From positions 1 to 59,762 of the forward strand of contig JAEMQS010000022.1 in NCBI GenBank assembly GCA_016463765.1: a DNA stretch of 59,762 nt, in the 5' to 3' direction. The position numbers were made by a program, and so were the translations under genes. The notes below the pieces were generated by a model. It was not told the origin of the DNA. It ran no database searches and saw nothing but the letters and a program-made list of their open reading frames with translations. Source of the DNA: Solirubrobacteraceae bacterium. GTDB taxonomy: Bacteria; Actinomycetota; Thermoleophilia; Solirubrobacterales; Solirubrobacteraceae. Below, one piece after another: positions 3,207 to 15,391 of the stretch. The number at the start of each line of letters is the position of its first letter. Within the stretch, counting starts at the first letter, position 1.

Positions 3207-3838
3207 CCGAAGCTCTCCACCAGGGCCTGCGTGACGAGGTTCCAGCCGTCGACGAGGACGAAGAGCAGGATCTTGAACGGCAGTGAGATGAAGACCGGCG
3301 GCAGCATGACCATGCCCATCGACATGAGGGTCGAGGCGATCACCAGGTCGATCACGAGGAACGGCAGGAAGATCAGGAATCCGATCTGGAAGGCCGTCTT
3401 CAGCTCGCTGATGATGAACGCGGGGATCAGGACGTAGGTCGGGACGTCCTTGCGCGTCCGCGGCGGCTCGAGCTTGCCGAGCTTCATGAACAGGGCGATG
3501 TCGCGGTCGCGCGTCTGCTTGAACATGAACTCGCGCATCGGCATCTCGGCGCGCTTGAGCGCCTGCTCCTGCGTGATCTTCTTGTCCATCAGCGGGTCGA
3601 CGGCGTCGGTCTTGATCTCCTTGAAGGTCGGGGCCATGACGAAGATCGTCAGGAAGAGGGCGATGCCCACGAGGACCTGGTTCGGCGGCGCGGTCGGCGT
3701 GCCGAGGCCGGTGCGGATGAAGCCGAGGACGACGAGGATGCGCGTGAAGCCGGTGACGCAGAACAGCAGCGCCGGGATCAGCGCGACCCCGCCGATCAGG
3801 ATGAGGAGTTCGACCGCGTTGCCGCCGTCGCCCGTCAT
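3203..3838 (-). CDS. fliP: Flagellar export gate protein FliP
   Basis: FliP is the pentameric centre of the export gate. It has 211 residues, shorter than the roughly 245 of enterobacterial FliP. The missing part is the cleaved N-terminal signal peptide and the segment after it: the protein begins directly with the first membrane helix (VELLILIGGVALIPALLF). Conserved blocks are intact: FTRILVVLGFIRTGLGTPTAPPNQ (given here in two halves, FTRILVVLG and IRTGLGTPTAPPNQ), REFMFKQTRDRD, SELKTAFQIGFLIF and LPFKILLFVLVDGW. Start and stop overlap fliO and fliQ by 4 nt each. The identification is certain. Only the absence of the leader is unusual, and it is also seen in some other lineages. Confidence 0.97.
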   Translation of the reverse strand: MTGDGGNAVELLILIGGVALIPALLFCVTGFTRILVVLGFIRTGLGTPTAPPNQVLVGIALFLTIFVMAPTFKEIKTDAVDPLMDKKITQEQALKRAEMPMREFMFKQTRDRDIALFMKLGKLEPPRTRKDVPTYVLIPAFIISELKTAFQIGFLIFLPFLVIDLVIASTLMSMGMVMLPPVFISLPFKILLFVLVDGWNLVTQALVESFG

Positions 3839-4482
3839 GACCGCACCGTCTTCTCACGGATGCTGCCGAGCAGCGCCTGCACGGTCAGCTGGTTGGGCTT
3901 CGTCGACGCGGTCTGCGCGCCCGGCGCGCCGCCGGCGGCCAGGACCTTGCGCAGCAGGGCGGGCATCGCGGCCTTCGCGCCGGTCTCGGTGGCCGAGCCC
4001 TCGATGACGCCGTCCTGCTCGGGGTCGGGCACCAGGCCGGCGAGGATCGCCTCGGCCGCGGTATAGGTGCGGATCGGCGTGATCGCGTGCTCGCCGACGC
4101 CGACGAGGATGTAGTCCTCACCGGCGCGGACCAGGTGCAGTGCGCGGTTCGCGCCCAGGCCGATGGACGCCACGGTGGCGAGGCCGTCGCCCTTCGTGGC
4201 CTCCTCGCGGCTGGCCTTGATCTGGCGCAGCACCCAGTAGAGGCCGTAGATGACGGCGAGGACGATCGCGAGGCCGACGAACGTGCGGACGACGTTCGAG
4301 CTGCTCGTCGCGGTCGCCGCGGCGCCACCGTCGTCCGTCGGGACCTTGATCGGCGTGTCCTCGCCGGTCGGAGCCTTGGGCGCAGGGGTGGTCTTCGTGC
4401 CTTCAGCCGCGAAGGTGGCGGCCGGAAGCAGCAGACAGGTGACAGCGGCCGCGGAGACGGCCGAGAGGCGGAGGCGAATCAT
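3835..4482 (-). CDS. fliO: Flagellar biosynthetic protein FliO
   Basis: FliO is a bitopic membrane protein that helps assemble the FliP/FliR core. The ATG at 4482 is chosen because it begins a convincing signal sequence (MIRLRLSAVSAAAVTCLLLP, cleavage likely after the ATFA at residues 22-25). The open frame continues upstream to 4545, but that part is Arg/Pro-rich and looks non-coding. A low-complexity linker follows, then one membrane helix at about residues 66-86, then a cytoplasmic domain with GLGANRALHLVRAGEDYILV, the hallmark of the FliO family. The total is 215 residues. No strong ribosome-binding site is seen. It is the first gene of the export-gate unit, and a sigma-28-like promoter lies 46 nt upstream. 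Confidence 0.9.
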   Translation of the reverse strand: MIRLRLSAVSAAAVTCLLLPAATFAAEGTKTTPAPKAPTGEDTPIKVPTDDGGAAATATSSSNVVRTFVGLAIVLAVIYGLYWVLRQIKASREEATKGDGLATVASIGLGANRALHLVRAGEDYILVGVGEHAITPIRTYTAAEAILAGLVPDPEQDGVIEGSATETGAKAAMPALLRKVLAAGGAPGAQTASTKPNQLTVQALLGSIREKTVRS

Positions 4483-4527
4483 TGGTGTGGAGGGGTGACG
4501 TCGGGGAGGGGGCCGGCGTCCATCCCT

Positions 4528-4554
4528 TCGTCGGCAACCACGCACCGGGCTTGA
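4528..4554 (-). promoter_or_regulatory. Candidate sigma-28 promoter for fliO-fliP-fliQ-fliR-flhB-flhA
   Basis: On the minus strand, TCAA is followed by exactly 15 nt and then GCCGACGA (bacterial sigma-28 consensus TAAA-N15-GCCGATAA). The -35 element sits inside an inverted repeat, CCGGGC/GCCCGG, with a 7-nt centre. It is placed 46 nt upstream of the fliO ATG. Confidence 0.65.
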
Positions 4555-4564
4555 GAGGCCCGGT

Positions 4565-4576
4565 GGACATTTGTCC
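4565..4576. promoter_or_regulatory. Palindrome upstream of the fliO promoter
   Basis: The plus strand reads GGACATTTGTCC, with 5-bp arms. It ends 10 nt upstream of the -35 element of the fliO promoter. On the minus strand, CGGACAA..GTCCAC is shared with the palindrome upstream of the fliJ promoter (26687-26698). An activator or repressor site is an inference. Confidence 0.35.
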
Positions 4577-4593
4577 GATCGACGTTTGAATCG

Positions 4594-5136
4594 TCAGCGC
4601 CAGGCGCTGAGACGCAGCGAGTGCGTCACCCGCGGCGCGCCGCCGAGCAGGCGGCGCTCGGTGACGTCGAGCTCCTCCAGCCGGCCTTGGGCGTCGGCCG
4701 CGATCCGCAGCGCGGCGGCACGCCGCCCGTTCGGCAGTGGGATCCCGGTGACGCGCAGCACGAGCGTCCGGACCCAGCGCGCCGGATCCCCGGCCGGCAG
4801 CTCCGCCGCCGCGCCCGGGGCGAGTTCGTGTTCGGTGATCGCCTCCAGCAGGCCGAGCAGCCCCGCGCCCGAACGCCCGACGTCGCGGCCGGCCCAGTCG
4901 GGGTCGACGTGGCGCTGCTCGGGCTCGCCCCCGGCGGTCAGGCCGACCTCCTCGCCGACGAGCTCGACCCACAGCGGCCGCAGGTCCGGGGCGTCGCGCT
5001 CGAGCGTCGTGAGCCCGCGGGCGAAGTCGCACGTGCCCGTGAACCGCACGCTTCCCGCGCTCCCGCGCGCGGCCGTGAGCTCCGCGCGCGCCGCGCCGCC
5101 CGCCCGCGTGCGCTGCAACAGCTCGCCGACCGTCAT
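4594..5136 (-). CDS. Uncharacterised 180-residue protein between the c-di-GMP gene and fliO
   Basis: I do not recognise this protein. The ATG at 5136 gives 180 residues, with coding-like composition and no signal peptide or membrane segment. The frame is open further upstream, but there it lies antiparallel to the c-di-GMP gene product's own frame and makes no sense. The sequence contains a mix of short strands and helices, with a Trp-rich centre (LRPLWVELVGEEVGL near 52-66; ARWVRTLVLRVTGIPLPNGR near 119-138). It lies 38 nt downstream of the large multidomain gene and upstream of the fliO promoter, so it is probably the last gene of the motA-fliN transcript. It could be a small accessory of the c-di-GMP protein, but that is only positional. 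Confidence 0.6.
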   Translation of the reverse strand: MTVGELLQRTRAGGAARAELTAARGSAGSVRFTGTCDFARGLTTLERDAPDLRPLWVELVGEEVGLTAGGEPEQRHVDPDWAGRDVGRSGAGLLGLLEAITEHELAPGAAAELPAGDPARWVRTLVLRVTGIPLPNGRRAAALRIAADAQGRLEELDVTERRLLGGAPRVTHSLRLSAWR

Positions 5137-5174
5137 GCCGCCAACGGTACCCGGCGCGGTGGCCGACGCCCGGT

Positions 5175-8100
5175 TCAGTCCACCGGACCGGGGCGCCCGA
5201 CGTGGAAGCCCTGCGCATAGTCGACGCCGTAGGTCCGCAGGAGCTCGAGCGTCTCGGCGTCCTCGACGAACTCCGCGATCGTCTTCAGCCCCAGCCCCTG
5301 CGCGACGCCGACGATCGCCTTCGTCACGTGCTGGTCGGTGGGGCTGCGCGTGAGCGTCTGGATGAAGTCCCCGTCGATCTTGATGTAGTGCAGCGGCAGG
5401 CGCTTGAGGTAGTAGAAGCTGCCGAACCCGACCCCGAAGTCGTCGAGCGCGAAGTGGCAGCCGAGCGCGGTGAGCCGCTCGGCGAGCGCCGCCGCACTCG
5501 GCAGGTTCGCGATCGCCGCGGTCTCGGTGATCTCGAAGACGAGGTTCGCCGGATCGGCACCCGCGGCCTCGACCTCCTGCTGGATGTAGGCGGGCAGCTC
5601 CGCATCCGCGAGCGACTTCGCCGACAGGTTGAGCTCCAGCAGCCGCCCGCCACTCGTCGCCGCCAGCCGCGCGCCCTCCCGGATCACCCAGCGGTCGATC
5701 GCCGTGATGAGCCCGGTGCGCTCGGCGGTCGGCAGGAACTCGGCCGGCGCGATGAGCTCGCCGTGGTCCTCGAGGCGGATCAGCAGCTCGGCGTGCGTGA
5801 CCTCGTTGGTGCGCAGGTCGAGGATGGGCTGCTCGTGCAGCGTGAACTCCTCGTGCTCGAGCGCGTGGCGGATCCGCTCCGACCACGTGTGGCGCGCGGC
5901 GGCGCGACGACCGTCATCCGGCGTGTAGACGACCGCGCGGTCCCGGCCGGCCTCCTTGGCCTGGTCGAGTGCGATGTCCGCCGCGGCCAGCAGGTCCTGC
6001 GCGTTGCCCGCGTCCACGGTGATCGGGGCGATGCCGATGCTCGCCGTCGTCCGCACCCGCGCCCCGTCGCTGACCAGCGCGTGCGTGCGGACCAGTTCGA
6101 GCAGCTCGTCGCCCACGACCTGCGCGCCGGGCACGTCGGTGCGCGACAGGATGAACGCGTACTCGTCGCCGCCCAGCCGCGCGAGGATGTCCGTCGGGCG
6201 CAGGCGCTCGCGCAGCGCGTGGGCGAGCGCGCGGATGAGCTCGTCGCCGACCTGCGGGCCCAGGCTGTCGTTGATGTCCCGGATGTGGTCGAGGTCGAGC
6301 ACGAGCAGCACCGCCGCGCTGGCGTTGCGCCCCACCCGCTCCAGCGCCGAGGCCAGCTCGCGCTCGAACCGCGGGCGGTTGAGCAGGCCGGTGAGCGCGT
6401 CGTGGTCAGCCGCGAACTCCAGCTCGTGCTCGAGGCGCTTGCGCTCGGTGACGTCACGGACGATCCCGATCGTCCACGTCGCGCCGGGGCGTTCGAGCGG
6501 GCTGAGGGTGACCTCCACGGGGAACGACGCGCCGTCGCGCCGGCGGCCCGCCCGCTCCAGTTCCAGGGTCGCGGTCCCCTCGGCGGAGAGCGCGACGCGT
6601 GTCCAGTCGATCTCGCCGACGAGCTCCTCCGCCGGGCTGCCCTCCAACGCGTCGCGCGTGTAGCCGAACAGCTGCTCGACCCGCGAGTTGACGAGCACGA
6701 TCCGGCCGCGCTCGTCGGTGATGAGAATCGCGTCGGGCGCCGACTCGACGAGCGTGCGGAACTGCTCCTCGCTGGCGCGCAGCTCGCCCTCCGTGCGGCG
6801 GCGGATCCGGTTCTCCTCGCGCACGTCCTGGTAGAGCCGCGCGGTCTCCACGGAGATCGCGGCCTGGGCGGCGAGGATCTCCACGGCCGCGAGCCGGTCC
6901 TCCGGGAACGCATCGTCGACGAGCCGGTGCTCGAGCAGCAGCAGGCCGACGAGCGCGCTGTGGCGCACCACGGGCTGGCAGAGCAGCGAGCGGATGCCGC
7001 GGGCGGTGATGACGGCGTCGGAGCCGAAGGTCGGGTCGGCGCGCGCGTCGCGCAGCAGGACGCGCTCGCGGGTCCGCAGGACGTAGTCGGTCACGGCGTG
7101 CGGCACGCCGTCGTCATCGTCGGCCGCCGCGCGGCGGACGTGCACCTCGTCGTGGGCGGTCTCGGCGACCGCGACCACGTCGATCCGGCCGTCGTCGTCG
7201 ACGAGCAGCAGCCGGCCCGCCTGGGCGCCCGCCGCGGCGACCGCCAGGCGCAGGAGCGTCGCGGGGAGCTGTTCGAGGTCGAGCTCGCCGGAGATCGCCT
7301 GGGAGCTGCGCGCGACCGCGAGGGCGTCGAGCGCGGGCGCGCCCGCCGGCATCCCGGCGGGCACCGCGGCCAGGGCGGCGAACTCGGCTTCCAGCTGCGC
7401 CACCTTCGCGGTCGCCCCCCAGCGCGCGTAGCGGTCGCGCGCGTCACGCAGGCAGGCCAGGCCCACCGACGCCAGGTCGCGCCCCAGGTACCAGCGACCG
7501 GCACGTTCTCGCGCGAGCGCCTCGTAGTGGATGAGCCCGGACCCTGCGGCGGCGGTGATCGCGGCCTCGTACGCCCGCGCCGCGTCCTCGACCCGACCCT
7601 CGATCCGGGCGAGCTCGGCCGCCACGAGCTGGGCCGGCGCCAGGAAGTTGCCGGGCCCGTGCACCGCCCATGCGTCCAGGCGTGCGACGGCCGCGATGAG
7701 CCGCGCCCGGATCTCGTCGCGGTCCGCGGGCGACGCGGCGTCCCACGCCGCCGCCCGCGCGAGCGCGCCGTACGGCTCTTGGAGCGCGAGCATCGGGTGG
7801 TACGCCACCGCCCAGCTGACCTCGTCGAACTGCTGCGCCGCCGCGAGCGCGTCGTCGACGCGGTGCGCGATCACGAGGACGCCGAGGCGATGCAGCGTGT
7901 CGATCGCCAGGTAGAACGGCGGGCGGCTCGTGCGCAGCCGGTCGGCGAACGCCTCGTCGTCGAAGTCGGCGCCGCCGTAGTCGCCGAGGGCCGACGTCTC
8001 GCCCCGCAGGCTGCGCGCCGCGCGCTCGACGATCCACAGCGCGTCCTGGTTCTCCGGCAGCTTCATCTGCTCGGCGAAGGCGAACCGCGGTTCGGCGTCG

Positions 8101-11100
8101 CGCAGCACCTCGTCGAGCGCGTCGCCCGCCGCGAAGCGGATGACCAGGGAGAAGAACCCGCAGTACGCCGCGTGGGCGAGGTCGCCGACGGCGACGCCAT
8201 GCTCGAAGCCCGCGCGGATGAACGGCAGGCAGTCCGGATACGGGTCGGTCCAGACGCTGCCCAGTCCGACGTAGACCCCGGTCTGCGCAGCCAGGGCATC
8301 GATCCCGGCGGCCTCGGCCAGCGCGTGCGCGGCATGCCCGAGGCGCCGGCCCTCCTCGGGACGGCCGAAGCGTGCGGCGAGCACCGAGCCGAGCAGCGCG
8401 TGCAGCAGCGGGGACAGCGCGGCATTGCCGTGCTCCAGGCTCATGAGCGCGCTCTCGAGCATGAGCCGGATCCCGAGGTTCGTGGAGCCGCCCAGGAATG
8501 CGGCCGTCATCACCGGGGCCAGCAGCCCGGCGACCGCGTTGATGCGCGGGTCGTCCGTCACCGGGAGCTCGAGCAGGGACTCGATCGGGCGGCCGCCGAG
8601 CAGGTCCCACATGCGTGCGGCCACCGCGTCGATCTCCTCGTCGGAGAGATCCGGGTCCAGCCCGACGCCGAGCCGGGCGAGGGCGTCGATGCCGGCCTGC
8701 GCGGCCTCCGCCGGCTGGCTGCGCGCCAGCCGCGTCTCCACCCGCATCTGCGCGGCGGCCGCGATGTCGCCGGGCTCGCGGGCGTGCGCGAGCAGCAGGT
8801 CCACCAGCCGCTCGGTCTCCTCCAGATCGCCACCCGCGTGCTCGCACCGCGCGCACCCGAGGTGCAGATCGAGGCTCAGCCTGGGCGCGACCTCCCAGGC
8901 GTCCTCGGGCAGGAACTCGATGCCGGTGCGCAGGTACCGGGCGGCCGACCGCAGCGCCGTCGCCGCCATGGCGCGGTGGCCGGCCAGGAGGTTCAGCTCC
9001 GCGCACCGCAGCCGCTCGGCGGGGTCGTCGACGAGCCCGGCCCCGGCGTTCAGGTGACCGACGATCCCGAAGACCCGGGCCTCGAGCACCTCCGCGGGCG
9101 CGTCCGCGAGCAGCGCCCGGCCGATCGCGAGGTGGACCGCGGGCGCCTCGGACGGAGCGATGAGCGCGTACGCCGCCTGGCGCACCCGGTCGTGCGAGAA
9201 CCGGTAGCCGGGTTCGCGCGCGACGAGCAGCCGCTCGCGCAGCGCGTCCCACAGGTCCGATTCGACGTCGCGCTCGGGTCGCCGCGCCGCGACCGCGAGC
9301 GTCGCAAGATCGCAGCGGTCGCCCAGGCAGGCAGCGATGGTCAGGACCTCCTGCGTGGCGGGCGGGAGACGCCGGAGGCGCTCGGTCATGATGTCGACGA
9401 CGTTGTCCGTGACGTCCGCGCCGGCAATCTCGTCCCGGTCCCAGCGCCACCCCCCGCCGAGCGGGTCGAGCGAGATGAGCCCGCGCTGGTGCAGGGCGTG
9501 GAGGAACTGCAGCACGTAGTAGGGCGTGCCGCCGGTCTTGTCGCGCACGAGCGCCGCCAGCGCCGCGCAGGCCGCCGGCGGCGCGCGCAGGGTGTCGTCG
9601 AGCAGGCGCTGCAGGGCGGGCGCGTCGAGCGGACCCAGGGGGAGTTCCAGCACGCCGGCGGACCCGCGCAGCTCGTGCAGCGCGAGCGTCAGCGGATGGG
9701 TGGGCTCGAGCTCGTCGTCCCGGTACCCGCCGACCAGCAGGAGCCGCGTCGGGCGGTCGCGCCCCGCGAGGTCGACCAGGAGCTGCACCGTCGCGGGGTC
9801 GGCCCAGTGCAGGTCGTCGACGAACAGGACGACCGGGTGCTCGGTCGCGAAGACGTCGATGACGTCGCCGACGACACGGTGGACGCGCCGTTGCGCCTCG
9901 GCCAGCGGGAGGTCGCCGACCGGCGGGCACGGGCCCAGCAGCAGCTCGGCGCGTGGGACGAGGTCGCAGATGATGCGGCCGTTGGCGCCGACCGCGGCGC
10001 GCAGCTGCTCGGTCCGCGCCCGCAGGCGGGCGGGCGGCTCGGCGAGCGCCTGCTGCACGAGCTCCCCGAGGGCCTGCGCGAACGGCGCGTACGGCACGTC
10101 GCGCGCGACACCGTCGAGCTTGCCGGTCACGAACGTGCCGCGGGTCTGCCCGACGGACTCGCGCAGCGACTGGACGAGCGAGGACTTCCCGACGCCCGCC
10201 GGCCCGGAGACGAGGACCAGCTCACTGCGGCGCGTGGAGGTCACACGCGTGAACGCGCCGAGCAGCGCGTCGCTCTCGGTCGTGCGCCCGTACAGGCGCT
10301 GCGGCACGGCGAACACGTCGGAGACGTCCTGGGACCCGAGCGCGAACGGCCCGACCACGCCCGTGTCGCGCAGATCGGCGACACAGCGCCCGAGGTCCGC
10401 GACCACCCCCGCGGCGCTCTGGTAGCGGTCCTCGGGGCTCTTGGCCAGCAGCCGCATGACGATGCGGTCGACGACCTCGGGGATCGCTGGCGTGTGGGCC
10501 CGCAGTGACTCCGGGACCCGCGCGACGTGGGCGTGCACCCATTCCAGCGTGTCGTCGGCCTCCAGCGGCAGGCGTCCCGACAGCAGCTCGTACAGGACGA
10601 CGCCGAGGGAATAGAGGTCGGACCGGCGGTCCACGGGGCGGTTGACCCGGCCGGTCAGCTCCGGCGACAGGTACGGAAGCGCGCCCTCGAGCCCGGCCGT
10701 GACCTCGCGGGCGGGCAGCATTCCGGGGGCGAGCGGACGGGCAGACCAGAGGCCCGTCACGCGCACGTCGGCCTCGGCCTCCGGCAGCAGGAAGGAGCGG
10801 GCCTGCAGGTCGCGGTGCACGAGCCCGTGGCGGTGGACGGCCGCCAGCGCCCGAGCGGCGCCCAGGGCGAGGCCCAGCGCTTCGGCGAGGCCCAGCGACC
10901 CGGCGTGCAGATCGTCGAACGTCGCGGCGGTCTCGACGGTGGGTGCCGCCACGATCACGGACGTCGCCAGCAGCTGCCCCTCCGGGGCCCGGTGCCCGAA
11001 CAGCACCGCCCTGCCTGTGACCGGCTCACCGTTCCAGCGGACCGTCAGGGTCCCGTCCCACCGGCCCTCGCGCACGGCGCGCGGGATGATCTCGGCGGCC

Positions 11101-11363
11101 GCGCGCGGGCGCTCACCGGCATCGAACAGCTGGTCGACGGGATCCCCTGGCACCAGGCCGAGCGCCGCGCGAGCGCCACTGCCCGCCTCCACGACCTGCC
11201 CGTCGAGCCCGATGACGACCACCGCGTCGGCGCAGCGGTCGAACAGCTCCGCCAGCCGGTCGATGGCGTGCGCGGGTGCGTCCCGGCGCGCGTCAGAGCC
11301 CTGGCCGGTGAGACGGCGTACGGCCTGCGCGACGGGAGGAGCCGTCCGTGGATTCGTTGACAC
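5175..11363 (-). CDS. Giant PAS-pseudokinase-AAA ATPase-TPR-GAF-PAS-GGDEF-EAL protein (2062 residues)
   Basis: This is a probable cytoplasmic sensor and c-di-GMP enzyme; it starts with GTG. Domains by residue: PAS-like (about 33-140); C-lobe of a Ser/Thr kinase fold (about 155-330) with HRDL at 183-186 and SDLYSLGVVLYELLSG at 248-263; AAA/STAND ATPase with Walker A GPAGVGKS at 387-394 and Walker B VVLFVDDLHWAD near 511-522; a long helical TPR-like region (about 700-1340); GAF (about 1350-1520); PAS (about 1525-1645); GGDEF (about 1650-1805); EAL (about 1832-2058). The kinase part lacks the N-lobe and the DFG motif, so it is probably a pseudokinase. The cyclase site is GGDEY (1731-1735) with an RxxD inhibitory site five residues before it. 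The EAL domain has ELL (1859-1861) but keeps DDFG (from 1974) and KIDG. It lies between fliN and fliO, so a role in tuning motility is likely. Confidence 0.9.
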   Translation of the reverse strand: MSTNPRTAPPVAQAVRRLTGQGSDARRDAPAHAIDRLAELFDRCADAVVVIGLDGQVVEAGSGARAALGLVPGDPVDQLFDAGERPRAAAEIIPRAVREGRWDGTLTVRWNGEPVTGRAVLFGHRAPEGQLLATSVIVAAPTVETAATFDDLHAGSLGLAEALGLALGAARALAAVHRHGLVHRDLQARSFLLPEAEADVRVTGLWSARPLAPGMLPAREVTAGLEGALPYLSPELTGRVNRPVDRRSDLYSLGVVLYELLSGRLPLEADDTLEWVHAHVARVPESLRAHTPAIPEVVDRIVMRLLAKSPEDRYQSAAGVVADLGRCVADLRDTGVVGPFALGSQDVSDVFAVPQRLYGRTTESDALLGAFTRVTSTRRSELVLVSGPAGVGKSSLVQSLRESVGQTRGTFVTGKLDGVARDVPYAPFAQALGELVQQALAEPPARLRARTEQLRAAVGANGRIICDLVPRAELLLGPCPPVGDLPLAEAQRRVHRVVGDVIDVFATEHPVVLFVDDLHWADPATVQLLVDLAGRDRPTRLLLVGGYRDDELEPTHPLTLALHELRGSAGVLELPLGPLDAPALQRLLDDTLRAPPAACAALAALVRDKTGGTPYYVLQFLHALHQRGLISLDPLGGGWRWDRDEIAGADVTDNVVDIMTERLRRLPPATQEVLTIAACLGDRCDLATLAVAARRPERDVESDLWDALRERLLVAREPGYRFSHDRVRQAAYALIAPSEAPAVHLAIGRALLADAPAEVLEARVFGIVGHLNAGAGLVDDPAERLRCAELNLLAGHRAMAATALRSAARYLRTGIEFLPEDAWEVAPRLSLDLHLGCARCEHAGGDLEETERLVDLLLAHAREPGDIAAAAQMRVETRLARSQPAEAAQAGIDALARLGVGLDPDLSDEEIDAVAARMWDLLGGRPIESLLELPVTDDPRINAVAGLLAPVMTAAFLGGSTNLGIRLMLESALMSLEHGNAALSPLLHALLGSVLAARFGRPEEGRRLGHAAHALAEAAGIDALAAQTGVYVGLGSVWTDPYPDCLPFIRAGFEHGVAVGDLAHAAYCGFFSLVIRFAAGDALDEVLRDAEPRFAFAEQMKLPENQDALWIVERAARSLRGETSALGDYGGADFDDEAFADRLRTSRPPFYLAIDTLHRLGVLVIAHRVDDALAAAQQFDEVSWAVAYHPMLALQEPYGALARAAAWDAASPADRDEIRARLIAAVARLDAWAVHGPGNFLAPAQLVAAELARIEGRVEDAARAYEAAITAAAGSGLIHYEALARERAGRWYLGRDLASVGLACLRDARDRYARWGATAKVAQLEAEFAALAAVPAGMPAGAPALDALAVARSSQAISGELDLEQLPATLLRLAVAAAGAQAGRLLLVDDDGRIDVVAVAETAHDEVHVRRAAADDDDGVPHAVTDYVLRTRERVLLRDARADPTFGSDAVITARGIRSLLCQPVVRHSALVGLLLLEHRLVDDAFPEDRLAAVEILAAQAAISVETARLYQDVREENRIRRRTEGELRASEEQFRTLVESAPDAILITDERGRIVLVNSRVEQLFGYTRDALEGSPAEELVGEIDWTRVALSAEGTATLELERAGRRRDGASFPVEVTLSPLERPGATWTIGIVRDVTERKRLEHELEFAADHDALTGLLNRPRFERELASALERVGRNASAAVLLVLDLDHIRDINDSLGPQVGDELIRALAHALRERLRPTDILARLGGDEYAFILSRTDVPGAQVVGDELLELVRTHALVSDGARVRTTASIGIAPITVDAGNAQDLLAAADIALDQAKEAGRDRAVVYTPDDGRRAAARHTWSERIRHALEHEEFTLHEQPILDLRTNEVTHAELLIRLEDHGELIAPAEFLPTAERTGLITAIDRWVIREGARLAATSGGRLLELNLSAKSLADAELPAYIQQEVEAAGADPANLVFEITETAAIANLPSAAALAERLTALGCHFALDDFGVGFGSFYYLKRLPLHYIKIDGDFIQTLTRSPTDQHVTKAIVGVAQGLGLKTIAEFVEDAETLELLRTYGVDYAQGFHVGRPGPVD

Positions 11364-11444
11364 AGCGCCCGCTTCCTGAAGACGCCGCGACCCTACCAGC
11401 GAGGCCCCTGGAACACGGCCGCTCAGCGGCGGCGGCGCCAGGTG

Positions 11445-11864
11445 CTACGCGGCGGCAGCGGCAGCGGCGATGGCGGCGTCGATGGCCGCCTGATCGATCG
11501 GCGCGTCCTGCGCCGGCACCGCTTCGACCGGCGGAGCGGCCGCGACCGGCGGAGCCTCGGCGGTCTGCGCCTCGGCGCCGACGACCTCGGTGACCCGCAG
11601 GCCGTATTCGGAATCGATCACGACGACCTCGCCGCGCGCCACGAGCTTGCCGTTGACGAGCAGGTCCACGGGCTGGTCGGCCATGCGGTCCAGCGCGATG
11701 ACGGACCCGGGGCCGAGCGCCAGCGCCTCTCCGAGCGACATCGACGTGCGGCCGATCTCGACCGACAGCTCGACGCGCACCTGGGCCAGGCGGCGCAGGC
11801 CGTCACCGGTGTCGATCGGCGCCGCGTCGACGGCGGACGGGGTGAGCGAGGTGATGTCGGACAT
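11445..11864 (-). CDS. fliN: Flagellar motor switch protein FliN
   Basis: FliN forms part of the C ring below FliM. The 139-residue protein starts at the ATG at 11864, with a good ribosome-binding site (AGGAGC, 7 nt upstream). The SpoA (surface presentation of antigens) domain covers about residues 22-95, with the diagnostic LAQVRVELSVEIGRTSMSL, VIALDRMADQPVDLLVNGK and GLRVTEVV blocks. Unlike classical FliN, the SpoA domain is near the N-terminus and is followed by an Ala/Pro-rich tail (about 96-139) that ends in an alanine run. A second SpoA protein, FliY at 14558-15391, also exists, so this rotor has two FliN-type subunits. It is downstream of fliL in the motA-motB-fliL-fliN unit. Confidence 0.93.
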   Translation of the reverse strand: MSDITSLTPSAVDAAPIDTGDGLRRLAQVRVELSVEIGRTSMSLGEALALGPGSVIALDRMADQPVDLLVNGKLVARGEVVVIDSEYGLRVTEVVGAEAQTAEAPPVAAAPPVEAVPAQDAPIDQAAIDAAIAAAAAAA

Positions 11865-11875
11865 GGCGAAGGCTC

Positions 11876-12340
11876 CTACTGCACGGCGACGTCGGTGAAC
11901 AGGACGTGCTTGACCTTCACGTCCGTCTTCTTGTTGATCTGCTTCGCGATCGATTTCTTGAGCTTCTCGCGCGACGAGCTGCGCTGGAGCTGCTTCGCGG
12001 TGGAGTCGCTGAGCGCGTCCGTGACGATGTCCCGGACCACCGGCTCCTGCGGGAGGACACCGAAACCCTCGGGCGGCTTGGGCGCCTTCTTCTCGCCCGA
12101 GGCGGCGGCGGCCTCCTTCGCAGCCTTGGCGGACGAGTACTTCTTGCCGAGCTCCAGCGCGACGTTCAGGCGCGCGAACCGGCCGTCCGACAGGTTGACG
12201 AGGAACTCCTTGGGAATGATGTACACCTCGCCCGCCACCTTCGGCTTCGGCTCTTCCTTCGGCTTGGCGAGCACCATCTTGTAGCCCCCCAGGGCGCCCA
12301 CGATGGCGACAACGACGATGATGATGATCTTCTTGTTCAT
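11876..12340 (-). CDS. fliL: Flagellar basal body-associated protein FliL
   Basis: FliL is a single-pass inner-membrane protein that surrounds stator units and stabilises torque generation. The protein has 154 residues. A short Lys-rich N-terminus (MNKK) precedes one membrane helix (about 5-25), followed by a periplasmic domain with EVYIIPKEFLVNLSDGRFARLNVALEL, shown here as EVYIIPKEFLVNLSDG plus RFARLNVALEL, the usual FliL pattern. The C-terminus keeps the SREKLKKSIAKQINK and VKHVLFTDVAVQ blocks. A Lys/Ala/Pro-rich insertion (about 70-95) is unusual for the family. The gene lies 4 nt from motB and 11 nt from fliN. Confidence 0.94.
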   Translation of the reverse strand: MNKKIIIIVVVAIVGALGGYKMVLAKPKEEPKPKVAGEVYIIPKEFLVNLSDGRFARLNVALELGKKYSSAKAAKEAAAASGEKKAPKPPEGFGVLPQEPVVRDIVTDALSDSTAKQLQRSSSREKLKKSIAKQINKKTDVKVKHVLFTDVAVQ

Positions 12341-12344
12341 GGGG

Positions 12345-13148
12345 CTACTCGGAGGCGTCGGAGGATTCGGCGGTCGGGACCTTCTGGCGAGGGATGAGGA
12401 TCTCGACCCGTCGGTTCATTGATCGGCCACGGTCGGTGGAGTTGGAGGCCACGGGTGCGAGGTGCGCCTTCCCGCTCGCCTCCAGGCGGACGGGCGAGAC
12501 CTTGTTGCGCGTCATCGCACGCACGACGGCGCTGGCACGGGCCGTCGACAGCTCCCAGTTCGTCGGGTAGCGCCCGCTGACGGGCACCGAGTCCGTATGG
12601 CCGGAGACGCGGATGGTGTGGCTCTTCAGGCGCAGCAGCTGCGCCATGCGCCGGATGATGCGGTCCGAGCGCGACTTCAGCTCGGCGCTCCCCGAGTCGA
12701 ACAGCAGGTCGTCGGACTTGAGCCTGACGTTCAGTCCGTCCTTCGTGACCTCCGTCTCCACCTTGCTCGAGAGGCCGTCGTCGGCCGCAGCGCTGTCGAT
12801 CTGCGCCTTCAGCTGCTCGAGGTCGCTCGTCTCCTTCTCGACCTCCTCGGCGGTCGCCGGGGTCGAGACCAGCGCGGCCTGCAGGGACGGCGAGGGTGGC
12901 TGCTGCTTGAGCTCGCTCGAGTCGGCCTGGCCGCCGGTCTCCGCGATCGCGGTGCCGCCCCCGAAGATCTTCCCGCTGTTCTCACGCACGGACTGCGCGA
13001 AGGGCTCGGCCTTCTTGGGGTCCATGTCGCCCAGCGCGTAGAGGACGATGAACAGCGCGAGCAGGAGGACGAGCATGTCCGCGAAGGTGACGAGCCACCG
13101 TTCGTCGGGGTGCTCCTCGTGGTGTGGGGCCCGCTTCTTCCGAGCCAC
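12345..13148 (-). CDS. motB: Flagellar motor stator protein MotB
   Basis: MotB is the peptidoglycan-anchored stator subunit. It has 267 residues and starts at a GTG (13148), 3 nt after the motA stop. The N-terminus has the characteristic DERWLVTFADMLVLLLALF, with the proton-carrying aspartate at residue 24 at the start of the single membrane helix. A linker (about 50-140) follows, then an OmpA-like peptidoglycan-binding domain (about 145-255) with LLFDSGSAELKS, VSGHTDSVPVSG, NWELSTARA and MNRRVEILI. The aspartate within a TFAD context suggests proton rather than sodium coupling, which is an inference. It is coupled with motA. Confidence 0.97.
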   Translation of the reverse strand: MARKKRAPHHEEHPDERWLVTFADMLVLLLALFIVLYALGDMDPKKAEPFAQSVRENSGKIFGGGTAIAETGGQADSSELKQQPPSPSLQAALVSTPATAEEVEKETSDLEQLKAQIDSAAADDGLSSKVETEVTKDGLNVRLKSDDLLFDSGSAELKSRSDRIIRRMAQLLRLKSHTIRVSGHTDSVPVSGRYPTNWELSTARASAVVRAMTRNKVSPVRLEASGKAHLAPVASNSTDRGRSMNRRVEILIPRQKVPTAESSDASE

Positions 13149-14557: not shown

Positions 14558-15391
14558 TCAGGCCGCCGCGCGATCGAGCACGCGCTCGATCGTCACGTCG
14601 ACGTGGTCGTCGTTGGTCTCGAGACGGCCGGTGGCGAACCACATGCCGTCCACGTAGATGTCGATCGGGTCGTCGATCTCGTGATCGAGCGCGACGACCT
14701 CGCCGATGGGCATGCCCACCAGCCGGCCGATCGGCATGCGGGTGCGGCCGAGTTCGGCCCAGACCCGCACAGGGATGTCACCGAGAACCTCGACGAGGGG
14801 CTCGCCCTCGACCTCGGCGGAGGAGATGCTTTCCAGCGCGCGCGCCATGCGCAGCACGAACGCGGACGGCACGAGCTGCACGAGGCGGCACGCCGTTCCT
14901 GCGATCAGGACCTCGACGGTCGTCACGTGCTGCTCGCGGTGGAGCATGGCCGCGGCGTCGCGCGCGGAGTCCAGATGGCGGACGTCCGGCGGCGTGATGT
15001 CGATGTGCTGGTCCAGGTAGGTGCCCGTCGCCGCGGCGGCGCCGGCCATCATCTGGTTCATCGCCTCGCCGATGGCCGAGAGCTCCATCTCGTCCAGGGC
15101 GTTGGGATCCGCCCCGGGCTCGGCCTGCTCCATGCCCATCATCTTCGCGGCGAGGGTGCGCGCGGCGGTGATCGGCATGATCATGACGTTGCCGCCCGTC
15201 ACGCCGTCGGTGTAGGCCACCGACGCGCCCACCGACGGCAGGCCGATCCCGGCGAGCGGGTCGACGCCCTCGGGCGTGATCGCGATCTCGCCGGCCTCGG
15301 CGACGCCGGCGCCGCCGAGCATCTCCAGACGGGCCACGACCTCGGTCACGGTCTGGTACGTCAGCTCGTAGAGGGCTTCGTCCTGGCTCAT
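14558..15391 (-). CDS. fliY: Flagellar motor switch phosphatase FliY (CheC-like domain plus SpoA domain)
   Basis: FliY is a C-ring protein that also dephosphorylates CheY-P in species lacking CheZ. The 277-residue protein has a CheC/FliM-like domain (about 25-190) and a C-terminal SpoA domain (about 195-270, with VRVWAELGRTRMPIGRLVGM and VALDHEIDDPIDIYVDG). One phosphatase motif of the [D/S]x3Ex2Nx22P type is intact: SAIGEAMN with a proline 23 residues after the asparagine. The first of the two active sites found in Bacillus FliY is not obvious near the N-terminus, so this is probably a one-site enzyme. The start overlaps the fliM stop by 4 nt. Confidence 0.9.
   Translation of the reverse strand: MSQDEALYELTYQTVTEVVARLEMLGGAGVAEAGEIAITPEGVDPLAGIGLPSVGASVAYTDGVTGGNVMIMPITAARTLAAKMMGMEQAEPGADPNALDEMELSAIGEAMNQMMAGAAAATGTYLDQHIDITPPDVRHLDSARDAAAMLHREQHVTTVEVLIAGTACRLVQLVPSAFVLRMARALESISSAEVEGEPLVEVLGDIPVRVWAELGRTRMPIGRLVGMPIGEVVALDHEIDDPIDIYVDGMWFATGRLETNDDHVDVTIERVLDRAAA

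Follow-up and report, generated by a model that had tools for sequence, protein, structure and literature searches.

A flagellar gene cluster of a Solirubrobacteraceae bacterium encodes a kinase C-lobe fused to a predicted PAS fold, a STAND ATPase and GGDEF-EAL domains

The contig JAEMQS010000022.1 of a Solirubrobacteraceae bacterium (assembly GCA_016463765.1), analysed here as one stretch of 59,762 nucleotides (the window), encodes within its flagellar gene cluster a 2062-residue protein in which a predicted PAS fold (PAS1) is fused to the C-terminal lobe (C-lobe) of a protein kinase, followed by a STAND ATPase, a GAF domain, a second PAS domain (PAS2) and GGDEF and EAL domains (Table 1). On balance, we favour the reading that this protein is a signal-gated phosphodiesterase of cyclic di-GMP (c-di-GMP) that would promote swimming; the PAS fold, the STAND switching and the hydrolysis are all predicted. 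The STAND module would take its nucleotide state from signals that bind PAS1, GAF or PAS2, or from partners that dock on the C-lobe and the long stretch in the middle, and its ATP-dependent self-assembly would gather the C-terminal domains and switch the EAL domain. The half-kinase would serve as a docking and relay piece and not as an enzyme. For the GGDEF domain, which retains its RxxD site, the expected role is mainly regulation in response to GTP or c-di-GMP, or else weak cyclase activity, and a drop in c-di-GMP close to the motor would promote swimming. More speculatively, and as a rather doubtful extension, a PAS sensor may have taken the structural seat of the kinase N-terminal lobe (N-lobe), yielding a one-piece, ligand-read half-kinase that drives the STAND ATPase and thereby c-di-GMP breakdown at the flagellar motor, with the kinase fold as a purely mechanical relay situated next to the switch genes under its control. 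If true, the kinase fold would have been reduced to its C-lobe with a sensor replacing the ATP-binding lobe, the role of pseudokinase lobes for STAND ATPases would become directly testable, and in Thermoleophilia a specific protein could be named as a candidate for controlling flagella through c-di-GMP.

A predicted PAS fold ahead of a kinase C-lobe

The coordinates, strand and length given in the original prediction, which was made from the DNA sequence alone, proved right. Pfam recognizes AAA_16 (E 4e-34), GGDEF (4e-36) and EAL (4e-66) domains, whereas the Pkinase match covers the second part of the model only (model positions 99-253 of 263, residues 161-315). HisKA and HATPase_c are absent from the 25 Pfam families matched, with GGDEF-EAL in their place, and the N-terminus lacks any Pfam PAS model at E ≤ 1. 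No TPR was among the Pfam models matched, with no search aimed at TPR in residues 546-1330; the N-terminal PAS and the TPR of the original prediction had thus both been assigned by eye. The reading frame is considered genuine because homologues span it, third codon positions change most in every domain relative to locus L002 of a genus mate, and nonsynonymous change (dN) stays below synonymous change (dS) throughout (dN/dS pairs of 0.517/0.949 for PAS1, 0.269/0.853 for the C-lobe and 0.096/0.374 for EAL). EAL is the slowest of the compared domains and GGDEF (dN 0.118) the second slowest; mean identity rises from PAS1 (47%, the lowest) over the ATPase (61%), C-lobe (67%) and GGDEF (76%) to EAL (85%). 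A similar N-terminal stretch opens nine of the 11 near-full-length homologues, with later starts in P0002 and P0011.

Structures were predicted with AlphaFold2 for residues 1-348 and 26-148. PAS1 shows PAS topology, and in a fold search of the PDB the model of PAS1 alone matches solved PAS domains, including that of CPS_1291 (3lyx; sequence identity 22%) and the flavin adenine dinucleotide (FAD)-binding PAS domain of NifL (2gj3; identity 12%), with no cofactor implied for PAS1. The PAS1 profile also matches PAS2 (E 4.3e-6) and does not match kinase N-lobes. Furthermore, a hidden Markov model (HMM) of the family N-lobe found no match in the 13 aligned rows of this type (the window protein, P0001-P0011 and P0014), no kinase N-lobe was seen among the best 50 matches of either of two fold searches with the PAS1-only model, and in a PDB sequence search the matched stretch started at residue 137 or beyond in the best 60 matches. 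A normal N-lobe was rejected on these three grounds (PDB sequence search, profiles and fold of PAS1 alone), and the structure prediction called for by the original prediction returned a PAS fold with the C-lobe behind it, bearing out the PAS-like domain at the N-lobe position.

The C-lobe retains HRDL (residues 183-186, with HRD at 183-185) and lacks an Asn at 190, and the place of DFG is taken by TGL, in which Gly204 stands for the Asp; the presence of HRDL and the absence of DFG had both been noted previously. Of the 13 rows, six (the window protein included) have D at the HRD Asp, six have G and one has A; none has N at the Asn position after HRD, and the DFG Asp is replaced by G in 12 and by R in one. 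As judged from these residues, the kinase part is catalytically dead. In a kinase-region alignment of 118 regions from 121 proteins (P0012 and P0013, without a P-loop pattern, and P0095, too short, were left out), the DFG-Asp column holds G in 69, D in 43 and other residues in six, and the HRD-Asp column D in 104, G in eight, A in three and N in three. Because Gly stands at the DFG Asp in 57/105 non-orthologue kinase regions, it is a family habit, and the missing DFG Asp, although real here, is common among relatives. Loss of the HRD Asp, in contrast, is concentrated in the PAS1-type orthologues (7/13 rows versus 7/105 others). Ser-Pro-Glu 233-235 (at the APE place), Asp249, Gly254 and Arg313 are invariant in 13/13 rows.

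When residues 1-345 were searched against 5.8 billion clustered proteins, 12 proteins covered at least 79% of the query and the next at most 68%, among the best 120 of 1964 matches. HMM sorting of 227 listed homologues plus the window protein placed PAS1 before the C-lobe in 13 and an N-lobe in 196, found neither in 17, and no C-lobe in two. Four of the 17 have a canonical N-lobe by eye, below the HMM threshold, and the other 13 start at most 56 residues ahead of the C-lobe match, which may mean that the N-lobe was truly lost, that the sequence is truncated or that the start is misplaced. P0067, P0069, P0101, P0153 and P0158 start, as annotated, 21-26 residues ahead of the match without an N-lobe. 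One extra PAS1-bearing gene was identified in genome G080 (E 2.8e-56), and no title on a half-kinase, or on a pseudokinase with GGDEF, EAL or STAND, was found in the portion of the open-licence PMC literature covered.

STAND ATPase and predicted c-di-GMP output

In agreement with the intact AAA/STAND module originally described, the P-loop and the Walker B DD are present in 12/12 rows and G612 and P614 of the GxP motif are invariant in the aligned rows; P-loop, Walker B and GxP make up the STAND motif set. The predicted c-di-GMP domains are likewise present. Eight EAL positions, presumably those for metal and substrate binding and catalysis, are invariant in 12/12 rows. The EAL motif itself had correctly been read as ELL, which is no defect, since its Glu is retained and ELL occurs in all 12 homologous rows. 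In the GGDEF domain the signature varies (DGDEF in six rows, GGNEY in one, and GGDEY or GGDEF in five, namely the window protein and four homologues) and the RxxD site is kept in 12/12. The window protein has GGDEY and an intact RxxD, as predicted, with Arg for the usual Lys in its LDLDHIRDIND stretch; the Asp, Asn and Arg positions that we assume to be essential for cyclase activity are all present. As these EAL positions are invariant and the GGDEF signature is altered in 7/12 rows, hydrolysis by EAL is favoured as the probable main output.

The original prediction held that a c-di-GMP output sets this protein apart; this uniqueness was rejected, as 14 other listed proteins join a kinase/STAND core to GGDEF and EAL domains. 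When 37 output modules, chosen by similarity (14 orthologues, the 14 other core-GGDEF-EAL proteins and nine paralogues), were placed in a tree, the 14 orthologues fell on one side of a branch (support 100/100) together with five shorter proteins of PAS-GGDEF-EAL type encoded in the same genome (reading frames of 701-1264 aa). A single origin of the orthologue outputs and the 14 others, as opposed to the nine paralogues, was rejected by the approximately unbiased test (p-AU 1.0e-7), in a tree where long branches meet. Given this topology and an identity of 42-46% to the five paralogues versus 31-36% to the 14 others, the orthologues likely acquired their output independently, which would suggest that the kinase-STAND-GAF scaffold gained c-di-GMP enzymes more than once. 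The core tree (12 orthologues, 14 GGDEF-EAL proteins and the 24 best matches with >1000 aligned columns; P0012, P0013 and P0014 left out as pieces) separates orthologues plus GGDEF-EAL proteins from the rest with a branch support of 86, not starred; it leaves the order unsettled and would also fit a core descended from a common c-di-GMP ancestor. P0067 adjoins the orthologues in this tree on a long branch.

Outside the genus, genome G106 encodes a protein (L026:7880-14215) with a STAND core and GGDEF-EAL, whose output part is 52% identical; it has no PAS1 match, no HRD by eye, and has lost the N-lobe. Its output groups with the shorter paralogues, and joining it with the orthologues was not rejected (p-AU 0.153); it may represent another separate acquisition. 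G080, also outside the genus, holds its PAS1 orthologue on a 3.3-kb contig, and in G155 the core ends in a histidine-kinase-like stretch (by eye).

Flagellar locus and alternative readings

On the minus strand the gene order is fliM, fliY-like, cheY, motA, motB, fliL, fliN, this gene, a 180-aa open reading frame (ORF), fliO, fliP, fliQ, fliR and flhB (cheY, fliQ and fliR named by eye). The location between fliN and fliO was thus confirmed, with the difference that the 180-aa ORF, which has no Pfam match, separates the gene from fliO. The same spot and companion ORF recur in loci L002 and L003 (Svornostia abyssi, CP088295), which are the genus mates G001 and G002 (same coordinates), and hence in 3/3 genus genomes including that of the window, which accordingly stems from a Svornostia-like species; the companion ORF occurs in 3/41 genomes (own included), all within the genus. 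FliP is encoded in 59/146 family genomes, and a match to residues 150-620 (E ≤ 1e-40) in 6/146, all six FliP carriers, and in 8/232 genomes of the order.

Several points count against a motility-promoting phosphodiesterase with a mechanical half-kinase. The window protein retains the HRD Asp, and when the whole 348-residue model was searched with the second aligner the best 50 matches were all kinases, starting at model residues 7-38, so this search alone leaves an N-lobe possible; it returns kinases because the C-lobe dominates, and in the model part of the PAS region can be overlaid on kinase N-lobes. Strong EAL conservation could equally serve binding, and with GGDEY and RxxD retained, the protein may be bifunctional or cyclase-led. 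If the GGDEF domain made c-di-GMP and the STAND switch picked between making and breaking it, activation could stop swimming; the cyclase residues of the window protein favour this version, but the signature is altered in most rows (DGDEF or GGNEY) and GGDEF is less conserved than EAL, and we think it unlikely. The genome also holds 17 further GGDEF-EAL spans, so that the effect of one enzyme may be small, and a single PilZ match, on a different contig of this 89%-complete draft. Quite unlikely, in our view, is that the PAS-C-lobe part is a functionless evolutionary remnant, leaving only the STAND, GAF, PAS2 and output domains to matter: nine family proteins start, as annotated, 21-31 residues ahead of the C-lobe match, G106 retains the later C-lobe part only and PAS1 is the least conserved domain, but the C-lobe is better conserved than the ATPase, dN is below dS in PAS1 and C-lobe alike, and the invariant C-lobe residues persist in every row. 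The chance that an assembly or start-choice artefact joined two genes is negligible: the draft genome has 252 contigs and the start is GTG, but the join is common to the 11 near-full-length homologues, two named records show the same gene beginning with the same neighbours, and just 81 bp separate fliN from the start codon.

The flagellar placement itself is genus-level. Among 16 fliP loci read from the 56 FliP genomes outside the genus, none (0/16) holds the gene in the stretch read; fliN is followed by fliO within ~300 bp in L033, L035, L041 and L044, with one extra gene between them in L037. Around the G106 gene, neither flagellar nor chemotaxis genes were matched within the 19 kb examined of its 24.7-kb contig, and the FliP of that genome lies on another contig. 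The search for this architecture at related flagellar loci succeeded in the genus genomes and found none at the 16 loci read beyond them, and the claim of direct motility control, which is inferred from position, is not supported as originally worded. The 16 loci and the G106 gene would suit a c-di-GMP regulator of ordinary, global kind that entered the operon a single time, in the ancestor of the genus, and that may be transcribed with it without being devoted to motility, a minority reading to which we give serious weight. Set against it are the retention with the companion ORF at one spot in all three genus genomes, with residues 150-620 sharing 64 and 74% identity with those of the two mates, and the shared strand with the operon.

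Table 1. Features of the gene and its flanks in the window (all positions are those of the window)
Feature	Position	Strand	Basis
Whole gene, 2062 aa, GTG start: PAS1 - kinase C-lobe - STAND ATPase - helical region - GAF - PAS2 - GGDEF - EAL	5175..11363	-	Pfam, homologues
PAS1, residues 34-145, in the kinase N-lobe place	10929..11264	-	AlphaFold2 models, PDB fold matches, profile match
Kinase C-lobe, residues 150-335, catalytically dead as judged from its residues	10359..10916	-	Pfam, alignments
STAND/AAA_16 ATPase, residues 356-544; P-loop 385-394, Walker B 511-523	9732..10298	-	Pfam, alignments
Remaining STAND module, residues 546-1330	7374..9728	-	Homology to family cores
GAF domain, residues 1362-1504	6852..7280	-	Pfam
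PAS2, residues 1533-1640	6444..6767	-	Pfam
GGDEF domain, residues 1652-1809; RxxD and GGDEY inside 1722-1736	5937..6410	-	Pfam, alignment
EAL domain, residues 1829-2058; catalytic positions invariant 12/12	5190..5879	-	Pfam, alignment
fliN, upstream neighbour	11445..11864	-	
180-aa ORF accompanying the gene at the fliN-fliO junction	4594..5136	-	
fliO, next flagellar gene downstream	3835..4482	-	

In genus g21, locus L032 (2460-7740) carries a 623-aa PAS-GAF-GGDEF-GAF ORF between fliN and fliO on the opposite strand together with an alpha/beta hydrolase, and L038 (4335-6203) a 622-aa GGDEF ORF adjoining fliO; the fliN-fliO junction may be a recurrent landing place for c-di-GMP genes. Besides the separate fliN, the window encodes a FliY-like gene (14558-15391, minus strand) with CheC, CheX and FliN-type C-terminal matches. 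In L003 (10001-16209) the gene is split over three frames, the first piece being P0014 (1184 aa); as cheD and the fliY-like gene of the same stretch are likewise split, this suggests sequence errors in the record and not gene decay. The L002 record is titled as a Bifidobacterium breve metagenome-assembled genome yet holds a Svornostia-like flagellar cluster, and the title looks wrong. NCBI taxonomy places Svornostia in the Baekduiaceae (Solirubrobacterales, Thermoleophilia), and no paper on S. abyssi was found in the open-licence literature. Scans of positions 3800-12400 for promoters (0 sites versus 0.1 in shuffles) and terminators (1 versus 0.8) were uninformative. The genome contains 86 matches to the query, including the protein itself, kinases and ATPases.

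Known relatives

In the excerpts of a review available to us (PMC12599244), CP1 (pseudo)kinases are described as joined to the predicted ATPase COG3899, in many cases alongside GAF or PAS domains, as degraded in ~40% of cases, as lacking transmembrane regions by criterion, and as of unknown function. The window protein resembles them in its ATPase linkage (AAA_16, with a core 37-41% identical to the best family members) and its degraded motifs (DFG Asp absent in 13/13 rows, HRD Asp lost in 7/13), but differs in having PAS for the N-lobe of the implied two-lobed kinase and a GGDEF-EAL output; neither a half-kinase nor a c-di-GMP output or a link to flagella is named in those excerpts (PMC12599244). 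Because its kinase is not two-lobed, we regard the protein as derived from the CP1 family and not as a member.

The dual Ser/Thr-His kinases, HstK and cbSTKIII (PMC2176072, PMC1262709) and homologues named 'trifunctional serine/threonine-protein kinase/ATP-binding protein/sensor histidine kinase', share the kinase, AAA_16 and GAF core (37-41% identity for the best relatives), but most have an N-lobe, and their output is a histidine kinase, in place of the half-kinase and c-di-GMP output predicted here. A fungal version, Chk1, has been described, and the domain has also been found with diguanylate cyclases (PMC9069115); the parts of these three papers that were accessible mention no half-kinase. 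Closer in output are the kinase-STAND-GAF-(PAS)-GGDEF-EAL proteins (such as P0015-P0022, P0109 and P0172), with cores 31-37% identical, which differ in their N-lobe match (13/14) and in outputs forming a separate clade, a common origin with the orthologue outputs being rejected (p-AU 1e-7). A Clostridium thermocellum protein with a kinase, six TPR and GGDEF likewise couples a kinase to a c-di-GMP enzyme, but the portion of its description available mentions neither a STAND ATPase nor PAS or EAL, unlike the protein reported here, which combines all three (PMC1262709).

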